64,000 nt of DNA from Gimesia alba (GTDB lineage Bacteria > Planctomycetota > Planctomycetia > Planctomycetales > Planctomycetaceae): positions 4,939,546 to 5,003,545 of the forward strand of contig NZ_CP036269.1 of the NCBI RefSeq assembly GCF_007744675.1, written 5' to 3'. The position numbers and the translations under genes were made by a program. Positions 57,809 through 60,176 of the stretch are shown here, piece after piece. Below the pieces are notes generated by a model, which did not search any database, was not told the origin of the DNA, and saw only the letters and a program-made list of their open reading frames with translations. The first letter of the stretch is position 1. Each line of letters begins with the position of its first letter.

Positions 57809-58801
57809 GTGGTTTCAAGCCCTCTTTTTCTTTACTCTGGGCAAAACGGGTTTATCTTGAATTCACAATTAACCGCAGAAGTCGCTGCACTGATTGCATC
57901 GCAAAGTCTTTCTCTGGCAGAAGGAACGAAACCCTTCTCTCCCACAGCACTTTACGATTTCTGGTTTCATGGACAGGAACACCTGAAACAACGCCGTAAA
58001 GCTCTGGAGCCAATTGCCAATGAAACTGGGGATTCTTCTCTCTCCGAAAAAGAGCTGGAAGTGATCCTCAAAGACTTCTTCGCTGAAGAAATGCTGGTTC
58101 GTGTCGTTACCGCGGTGTTTACCGCCGCTGATAAAAGACGCAATCAATGCCAGGCTGAACCCATTTCCCGGAGTCTCTTTTTGTCATTTCTCGATGTCAA
58201 AAAGTTAGCGCTGACAATTCTCGTGTCTGAAAAACAGATGAGCCTGGAGACTTTAAAAAGCCTTAACCGTATCAGACGTTCAATCGAACGCTGGACTGAC
58301 TTGTTTTTAGGACAATTGGTCTTCCAATTTGGCTTGGAAGAATTCGCTCACGATGCGGCCCGTTCCAGAGATTTTGGGGAAGACCAGATCTCTAATCTAA
58401 ATGCACCTCATCCAGTACAAACATGGGATCTGATCACCGCCGGCCTGCGTATCTCGTTCCCCGCGGGCCTCTCCAGCAAAACCGACGATCATTGGGAAAA
58501 AATGCTAGCAGCAATTATCGCCTGCTACCCGTCAGAATGTTTTAACGATTCCGCCACGATGAAATCCCTCCAGCGAATTCGAATCGAGCGTAGTGGTCAG
58601 CATCCGGAAATGCACCCGGATCATCTACCGGAACACTTTAACACAGCCATGTACCGGAGCCTGTTTGGAACGCATTCTCAGAAACAGACAATCCCCAAGC
58701 CACCAGCCAAAGTAAAAGCAGATCTTTCCTCCTTCAATCAGAAAGCGTCGATCAGCTTTTCCAAGCTTAAAAAACGGAATCCAAATGAGTCATCCTCCTG
58801 A
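57809..58801 (+). CDS. cytoplasmic protein of unknown function
   Basis: The start is GTG at 57809 or, about equally likely, TTG at 57857. The 330-residue protein is mostly helical and lacks a signal or membrane helix: YDFWFHGQEHLKQRRKALEP, LEVILKDFFAEEMLVRVVTA, LDVKKLALTILVSEKQM. A basic Ser/Lys-rich tail ends it (SFSKLKKRNPNESSS). The His/Asp-rich central part might bind a metal, but I do not recognise a motif. It precedes the aromatic leader and DAHP synthase on the same strand, with 134 bases between. Confidence 0.72.
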   Translation: MVSSPLFLYSGQNGFILNSQLTAEVAALIASQSLSLAEGTKPFSPTALYDFWFHGQEHLKQRRKALEPIANETGDSSLSEKELEVILKDFFAEEMLVRVVTAVFTAADKRRNQCQAEPISRSLFLSFLDVKKLALTILVSEKQMSLETLKSLNRIRRSIERWTDLFLGQLVFQFGLEEFAHDAARSRDFGEDQISNLNAPHPVQTWDLITAGLRISFPAGLSSKTDDHWEKMLAAIIACYPSECFNDSATMKSLQRIRIERSGQHPEMHPDHLPEHFNTAMYRSLFGTHSQKQTIPKPPAKVKADLSSFNQKASISFSKLKKRNPNESSS

Positions 58802-58935
58802 TCACTTCCGACATGAGAAGAAACTTGAAGGAATATCAGTTGACTTAATTCCCTGCACAGGAGTATGATCTAGTTTGAAGTCATTTCGAAAGAAATTTCG
58901 TTGAATTAGTATTTTTATTGTTTTGGAGTTTCTCC

Positions 58936-59070
58936 GTGACACATCGGTTTGGTACTTTTAGCTTTAATTTTGTGCGGCTGACTTATTTCTCAGCCTGGCA
59001 CTTTTTTAGCTATTGGTTTACCGGAACAGGTTATCAGACCGATCGAGCATACATTGTTCACAATAGATGA
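58936..59070 (+). CDS. aromatic leader peptide of a putative attenuator
   Basis: A GTG at 58936 has TGGAG (58924-58928) seven bases upstream and opens a 44-codon frame ending TGA at 59068. The peptide has eight Phe, four Tyr and two Trp, 14 of 44 residues, with the densest run LTYFSAWHFFSYWF at residues 15-28. Such a frame directly before a terminator and the first gene of aromatic amino acid synthesis is what a ribosome-stalling leader looks like. It is too short for gene callers to report. Conservation in relatives would prove it. Confidence 0.75.
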   Translation: MTHRFGTFSFNFVRLTYFSAWHFFSYWFTGTGYQTDRAYIVHNR

Positions 59071-59103
59071 ACAAACCCCGAATTCGATTGGCCCTGTAAC
59101 CTG
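58992..59103 (+). promoter_or_regulatory. putative attenuator pairing segments (1:2 and 2:3)
   Basis: AGCCTG (58992-58997, over the Trp21 codon) can pair with CAGGTT (59027-59032), with one G-U pair. CAGGTTA (59027-59033) can instead pair perfectly with TAACCTG (59097-59103). The last segment also forms the left arm of the terminator. A ribosome stalled on the aromatic codons would cover the first segment, favour the second pairing and prevent termination. Confidence 0.55.
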
Positions 59104-59124
59104 CCTGGTTACAGGGCTTTTTTT
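59091..59124 (+). terminator. intrinsic terminator upstream of DAHP synthase
   Basis: GCCCTGTAACC (59091-59101) pairs perfectly with GGTTACAGGGC (59107-59117) over a five-base loop, followed by seven T (59118-59124). It lies between the leader peptide and the aroF start at 59160, so it would stop transcription before aroF unless prevented. Confidence 0.92.
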
Positions 59125-59159
59125 GTACCCTGAGTCTAAAATAGAAACGAGTCAAAGCC

Positions 59160-60176
59160 ATGATAGTAGTAATGAAGCCTAATGCCACCGCGGAAATGGT
59201 TCAGGCAATGGTGAAGCGTGTGGAAGAAATGGGGTTGAAAGCACATGTCATCGTTGGCGAAGAACGGACTGTGATTGCAGCCGCTGGTGTTAAACGAGAC
59301 GGCCATCAGGCAGAGCTTGAATCGTGCGACGAAGTGGAAAAAATCGTCCCCATTGTCGCTTCGTACAAAGTCGCTAGTAAAGAAACCAAACCGGACCCCA
59401 CGGTTGTCCAGACCCGCGATCTTAAAATTGGTGGTTCCCATGTGGGAGTGATTGCAGGCCCCTGCTCCGTGGAAAGTGAAGAGCAAATCCTGCAGGTTGC
59501 CCGTCAGGTGAAAGCAGCTGGCGCGACGGGGTTACGAGGTGGTGCTTTCAAACCGAGAACCAGCCCTTACTCATTCCAGGGTATGAAAGAAGAAGGCTTA
59601 AAGTTGCTGGCATTGGCACGTGAAGAAACAGGGCTCGCAATTGTCACCGAAGTCATGACTCCCGAACACGTTGATATGCTTTGTCAATATGCGGATGTAC
59701 TACAAATTGGTGCTCGCAACATGCAGAACTATCACCTGTTGCAAGCCGTCGGCGAAACGCGGACTCCTGTCCTACTCAAACGAGGCCCCTCTGCCTCCAT
59801 CGAAGAATTCCTGCTCGCCGCGGAATACATTCTCGACCAGGGCAATCAGCAGGTCATGCTTTGTGAACGGGGAATTAGAACATTTGAAACACATACTCGC
59901 TTCACCTTGCCTCTGGCAACGGTCCCTTACCTGCATGAGCGAACACACTTACCTGTCGTGATTGACCCCAGTCATGGAACCGGAATCGCCAGCTTGGTGC
60001 CTCCCATGTGTGCCGCCGCGATTGCTGCCGGCTGTGATGGTTTAATCCTCGAAGTTCACCCTGATCCCTCTCGCGCAATGAGCGATGGAGCCCAGTCACT
60101 GACACCAGAGGTTTTCGCAAATACGATGGAAACCTGCCGCAAAGTTGCCGCGGCCATCGGGAAGGAATTAGGATAA
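59160..60176 (+). CDS. aroF: 3-deoxy-7-phosphoheptulonate (DAHP) synthase, type I with N-terminal regulatory domain
   Basis: The 338-residue protein has an N-terminal ferredoxin-like regulatory domain (about 1-75, [20 protein letters not shown]) as in Thermotoga/Bacillus-type enzymes. The catalytic barrel follows: [77 protein letters not shown] and VIDPSHGTG. It condenses phosphoenolpyruvate and erythrose 4-phosphate, the entry to Phe, Tyr and Trp synthesis. The N-terminal domain gives feedback control of the protein by aromatic amino acids in related enzymes. A leader peptide and terminator upstream suggest a second, transcriptional layer of control. Confidence 0.94.

Follow-up and report, generated by a model that had tools for sequence, protein, structure and literature searches.

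The question raised by this locus is what a short reading frame crowded with aromatic codons, and the terminator that follows it, are doing immediately upstream of aroF, the gene with which aromatic amino acid synthesis begins. The window, by which is meant the whole stretch of 64,000 nucleotides of Gimesia alba DNA that was analyzed, contains the following elements at this point:

58840-58869, forward strand: predicted sigma-70 promoter, TTGACT-18 nt-TATGAT, from a motif scan (10/12 matches)
58925-58928, forward strand: GGAG ribosome-binding word 5′ of the leader GTG, found in 12/12 genus loci
58936-59070, forward strand: leader frame with GTG start, 44 codons, 14 of them aromatic; the stop ends at 59070
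58984-59019, forward strand: main cluster of aromatic codons (codons 17-28)
59090-59124, forward strand: intrinsic terminator, stem 59090-59101/59107-59118 and then seven T to 59124; -21.6 to -22.1 kcal/mol
59160-60176, forward strand: aroF, class Ib (Bacillus type) 3-deoxy-7-phosphoheptulonate (DAHP) synthase, 338 aa, above the curated cut-offs of TIGR01361 and NF006421

The best explanation of this arrangement, to which we would give a probability of roughly 0.9, is a ribosome-mediated transcription attenuator of aroF, in which the leader and the terminator would very probably act as a switch that turns the gene on during a shortage of aromatic amino acids. A recount of the frame agreed exactly with the 44 codons, 8 Phe, 4 Tyr, and 2 Trp of the initial annotation (F5, F8, F10, F12, Y17, F18, W21, F23, F24, Y26, W27, F28, Y33, and Y39), and eight of the 14 fall in residues 17-28. 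The terminator is also as it was described, with 11 bp and seven T some 20 bases after the stop: the stem has 12 pairs if the last U is counted and 11 if it is not, it begins 19 nt past the leader stop, and aroF starts, as had been said, 35 nt after the T run. The predicted promoter ends 66 nt upstream of the GTG, and hexamers resembling it are present, by eye, in the upstream regions of the genus. Regarding the RNA as a whole, the predicted fold of 58876-59125 has a z of -5.8, and 0/200 dinucleotide shuffles were equally stable. As a background, the window and twenty 20-kb stretches of its genome, 464 kb in all, were read on both strands, giving 9,879 frames of 10-90 aa, of which 20 reach at least six aromatics in ten residues, and the leader is the only one of these 20 to have a terminator-like hairpin that begins no more than 70 nt downstream.

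Much of the argument comes from the other genomes. A total of 213 aroF upstream regions were collected, mostly from Planctomycetota, of which 188 were distinct in their last 150 nt and 184 were scored; a distant paralogue (L002) and a locus lacking its start (L027) were dropped throughout, two regions shorter than 200 nt (L018, L186) were dropped from the scoring of the 184, and L239-L244, added late, lie outside the scored sets. A leader was taken to be a short frame with at least six (strict) or at least five (loose) aromatics in 10 residues, thresholds that were fixed after the first set of loci, including those of the genus, had been seen, and that were left unchanged for a hold-out. The strict frame occurs in 93/184 aroF upstream regions vs. 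2/184 reverse strands and 6/552 dinucleotide shuffles, and the loose one in 116/184 vs. 11/184 and 32/552, respectively, and a terminator-like hairpin with a T tail follows 114 of these 116 leaders. Setting aside L203, with a doubtful hairpin, and L124 and L153, with none by the rule (L153 because its T run is short, as a strong stem is visible), there remain 113 leaders, and in all of them the hairpin starts 13-51 nt past the stop; among 85 representatives the spacing from stop to hairpin (median 27 nt) has an interquartile range of 25-31, and the final aromatic of the core precedes the stop by a median of 10 codons. The hold-out, made up of 20 regions whose family labels differ from that of the window (18 new loci, some families having relatives among the earlier named loci), gave a loose leader in 12/18, ten of these being strict, with a terminator in 12/12, and a leader on the reverse strand in 0/20. 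Among the named carriers are Blastopirellula marina DSM 3645, Lacipirellula limnantheis, Botrimarina hoheduenensis, Adhaeretor mobilis, and Roseimaritima sediminicola. Conservation of the frame in relatives was, of the points on which the initial annotation had made its proposal depend, the one that sequence can answer, and the aromatic frame and the terminator persist far beyond the genus.

No leader above threshold was found in 68/184 upstream regions, nor upstream of aroF in Rhodopirellula baltica (L086) or Alienimonas chondri (L068). When 70 distinct regions scored as lacking a leader were rescanned from stop to stop, up to 600 nt, a leader appeared farther out in L178 and a weaker one in L099; in L018, L093, L108, and L186 the upstream region ends early at a contig edge.

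With respect to what the leaders encode, 97 of the 113 cores carry F, Y, and W, nine carry F and Y, and seven F and W, so that the representation of all three aromatics, already remarked on in the window as befitting the common entry enzyme, extends to most of the set. In the representatives the in-frame density is 6.3 aromatics per 10 codons, in a frame picked for its maximum, and the two alternative frames have 1.4 and 2.1. A leader of three amino acids would suit the enzyme that opens the shared pathway.

Within the genus, the leader and the terminator are kept in the 14/14 loci examined (that of the genome itself, ten others, the named Gimesia record L104, and then L237 and L238), and the frame is open in all 14, with a length of 42-44 codons and a stop 89 to 97 nt upstream of aroF. 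Over 12 genus loci, a count which includes L006 and L007, the residues F8, F10, W21, Y26, W27, and F28 are invariant, and in some species a non-aromatic residue takes the place of F5, F12, F23, F24, and residues 17 and 18. Conservation of the frame does not extend over all 44 codons: in L004-L008 the tail is read in another frame owing to a 1-nt indel downstream of codon 37. A signature of synonymous substitution was sought in the genus and none was found, the variable sites being 9/11/8 at codon positions 1/2/3 (37 codons, 10 sequences, with L006 and L007 omitted because their last 150 nt are the same as those of L008, which hides the F23 change in L007); this missing third-position bias is tentatively attributed to the constraints of RNA pairing.

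Such pairing is predicted in the window between three segments:

58943-58951, forward strand: segment 1 (AUCGGUUUG), pairing with 59035-59043, duplex of -12.9 kcal/mol, present in the minimum-energy fold
59027-59047, forward strand: segment 2, 5′ strand of the putative antiterminator, leader codons 31-38; 19 pairs with 59083-59103, -24.2 kcal/mol
59083-59103, forward strand: segment 3, 3′ strand of the putative antiterminator, sharing bases with the terminator 5′ arm

The antiterminator, which the initial annotation did not name, uses the 5′ arm of the terminator and so excludes it, the duplex having -24.2 kcal/mol vs. -21.6 for the terminator stem, and segment 1 can, in the model, sequester segment 2. 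When stalled ribosomes were modelled before the 3′ arm of the terminator exists, an A site at codons 5-26 left all 19 antiterminator pairs, and later A sites left 18 (codon 27), 12 (codon 28), and none (codon 33); with a ribosome masked at the leader stop, the predicted fold is segment 1:2 plus the terminator. Two results count against the switch: (i) in the equilibrium fold of the full-length RNA the terminator forms in 13/13 modelled stalls; (ii) in the ribosome-free leader, up to the terminator loop, the antiterminator is preferred over segment 1:2. Since equilibrium thus favors the terminator in every stall, and the antiterminator without a ribosome, the switch would have to depend on which structures fold first as the RNA is being transcribed, which is also what classical attenuators are believed to rest on.

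The same relationship is predicted in other lineages, where the sequence of the putative antiterminator varies and its complementarity persists. The duplexes between each locus's own segment 2 and terminator arm are stronger than those with permuted partners (z -8.9 in 109 loci, i.e., the 113 minus four with less than 12 nt of segment, and -6.8 in the 85 representatives), and 0/20,000 permutations were as strong; the energy of the antiterminator hairpin against shuffled segments gives a mean z of -1.84 (113 loci), and the bare duplex against shuffled segments a modest one, -0.66, with a rank of 0.05 or lower in 21/113. In L072, L127, L190, L168, and L207, 9 to 12 uninterrupted pairs join the end of the leader or its stop bases to the terminator arm. 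Taken over the whole set the computed pairing is real, but it is not predicted at every locus, six of the 113 having none with the terminator arm (L058, L059, L069, L076, L081, and L188). Of the 79 representatives that have pairing (6/85 have none), 66 have a segment 2 that overlaps positions -18 to +14 of the leader stop, and this segment should therefore be disturbed by a ribosome that completes the leader. Sequence and predicted folding thus show the leader, the terminator, and the antiterminator, as well as how these are conserved and how complementarity is kept lineage by lineage. As a separate observation, a GCCC[TC]GA-like word is kept, by eye, in the terminator 5′ arm of many lineages, the rest of the hairpin being variable.

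From the above we infer the translation of the leader, the stalling, the dependence on charged tRNA, the kinetic order in which the RNA folds, and the direction in which the aroF attenuator responds. It would work as follows. RNA polymerase and ribosome would move along the leader together. With charged Phe-, Tyr-, or Trp-tRNA scarce, the ribosome would stall at the aromatic codons and leave segment 2 free, which would pair with segment 3 before the 3′ arm of the terminator had been made, so that no terminator would form and aroF would be transcribed. If charged tRNA were sufficient, the ribosome would reach the stop, situated in the loop of the antiterminator hairpin, so that it would break that hairpin; in Gimesia, segment 1 could then hold segment 2, the terminator would form, and transcription would end at approximately 59124.

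The dense aromatic clusters, and the loose pattern of an aromatic run with some ten residues from there to the stop that recurs across lineages, could also be expected if the nascent peptide itself responded to a free aromatic amino acid or metabolite by stalling the ribosome, hungry codons playing no part, TnaC being the model of this arrest-peptide type. However, the core residues swap among F, Y, and W from one lineage to another, where an arrest peptide would be expected to hold them fixed, and the strand pairing with the terminator arm falls within the Gly/Arg-rich tails, which makes this an improbable alternative. Lower still would be the chances of an attenuator that senses through its RNA or a protein (T-box, riboswitch, binding protein), the frame being incidental: the strong nucleotide conservation within the genus, third codon positions included, would agree with it, but the aromatic frame is rare in shuffles and 0 Rfam families reach the gathering score in the window. 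As for particular candidates, a T-box was rejected, with no match at E up to 5 in 58800-59200 and none at the Rfam gathering score in the window, and so was a riboswitch or other known RNA, a permissive scan of 58800-59200 having given four weak unrelated matches (atoC, mir-7918, NsiR1, and a betaproteobacterial toxic sRNA). A functional micropeptide as the product of the frame, with a terminator that only closes some unrelated transcript, would explain why the frame is open in 14/14 genus loci, yet this is very hard to credit when the C-terminal tail is frameshifted within the genus, the peptides found in other lineages have little in common besides the aromatic run, and a hairpin lies 13-51 nt past the stop in every one of the 113 leaders. 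A chance T-rich frame beside an ordinary terminator, conceivable in that poly-T encodes Phe in any frame, is rejected by the reverse-strand, shuffle, genome-background, and hold-out controls and has a negligible probability.

A ribosome-mediated attenuator requires attention to how its leader would be translated. The initial annotation gave the frame its own ribosome site, which holds for Gimesia but not in general: an SD-like word is present in 19/85 representative leaders vs. 71/85 aroF starts, and 22/85 look leaderless. Because so few leaders carry the SD word, the spacing of promoters was searched, and in these 22/85 representatives a sigma-70-type promoter ends 6-11 nt before the in-frame leader ATG, a promoter match 3-12 nt before an ATG being found in 9/1,700 shuffles. 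This suggests that the RNA would begin at the AUG or a few bases from it, in other words, that these would be leaderless mRNAs. The loci with this predicted spacing include L058, L070, L072, L081, L094, L101, L195, L197, and L207, Lacipirellula limnantheis and Adhaeretor mobilis being examples of species that show it, and in the relatives nearer to Gimesia the promoter match lies mostly 20-60 nt upstream of the ATG. In the window itself, the stretch 58925-58935 reads GGAGUUUCUCC, and the bases immediately 5′ of the start codon are able to pair with the leader's SD word, the pairing word across the 12 genus loci being CUCC in 8/12, CUCU in L006-L008, and CUCA in L004.

The known systems that come closest are the following. 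In Corynebacterium glutamicum, the aroR leader (Neshat et al., 2014, as cited in PMC11802643) has Phe-Tyr-Phe and lies upstream of the DAHP synthase gene aroF, with readthrough upon Phe limitation and, as reported in PMC11802643, no effect of Tyr availability; an aroR-aroF attenuator has also been predicted in this species (PMC4046766). The likeness, one of description, is that of an aromatic leader peptide before a DAHP synthase, and the difference is that aroR belongs to the Actinobacteria and has FYF, whereas the planctomycete leaders mostly have F, Y, and W together (97/113). The uORFC-13-1 motif of Acholeplasma, a computational prediction (PMC8632094), has an upstream ORF with a run of Phe codons and a terminator before aroF, and resembles the present case by description; it is given there for Acholeplasma and environmental sequences only, with at least one Phe. 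The trpL, pheL, and pheST systems of Escherichia coli (PMC11802643) share the leader peptide, the terminator, and a mutually exclusive antiterminator, and the window also has a predicted segment 1:2; however, as described, each responds to one amino acid and regulates other operons, and the Gimesia leader is longer (42-44 codons). In Sinorhizobium meliloti, the trpL attenuator RNA starts at the AUG (PMC7298713), a leaderless start such as that predicted for the 22/85 representatives, but this is a trp operon of the Alphaproteobacteria, and Gimesia has a 5′ stretch with an SD word. A Shewanella paper lists a Tyr-tRNA-sensing attenuator at aroF, citing work on E. coli from 1980. Another paper (PMC4833913) brings together leader genes and Planctomycetes; its subject is the distance from leader to gene, and its text contains none of the words "aromatic", "phenylalanine", and "tyrosine". 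According to a 2010 survey (PMC2965389), leader-peptide attenuation was known only from Proteobacteria and Actinobacteria, to which the survey added Firmicutes.

The initial annotation presented the locus as a candidate undescribed attenuator. This has to be narrowed, since attenuation of a DAHP synthase was already known in C. glutamicum and predicted in Acholeplasma, but it stands for Planctomycetota, for which our literature search, covering few subscription journals, found no description of an aroF leader-peptide attenuator.

On a tree of 124 AroF proteins, 86 with a leader and 38 without, this label needs 18 changes vs. a mean of 32.6 in shuffles, with 0/500 as low, a pattern that is compatible with an old trait followed by repeated losses, is no proof of a single origin, and has a signal that near-copies also raise. 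The broader proposal, that a trivalent aromatic sensor ancestral to much of Planctomycetota sets the entry into the shikimate pathway, with leaderless mRNA in many lineages, has in our judgment slightly better than even odds. If true, it would be, as far as the searches show, the first leader-peptide attenuator described in Planctomycetota, and a widespread planctomycete case, cultured genera included, would extend this form of regulation to a deep branch. To our knowledge, gene regulation in Planctomycetota has been little studied. The three-amino-acid leader predicts that a shortage of any one of Phe, Tyr, and Trp would open the shikimate pathway; leaderless starts, if true, would mean that ribosome and polymerase are coupled from the first nucleotides in those lineages; and the comparative set would offer many natural variants of one switch with which to test kinetic models of attenuation.

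There remain the places where the leader was missing or turned up elsewhere. No leader above threshold was found in a clade of eight whose AroF is some 78-81% identical to that of the window (L032-L036, L038, L039, L055), and in some of its members another long frame lies close upstream of aroF. In a second aroF paralogue, of about 50% identity, the leader is above threshold in 0/6 of those sampled (L179-L184); in L179, L182, and L184 the frame upstream of this paralogue looks, by eye, like the end of pheA. In the same genome, up to 330 nt upstream of two trpE-family matches and one prephenate dehydratase match were read by eye, and no obvious leader was seen. Finally, outside the phylum, in two of the three loci from Thermodesulfovibrionales (L107, L111), there is a similar aromatic leader with a terminator, 237 to 153 nt before aroF.
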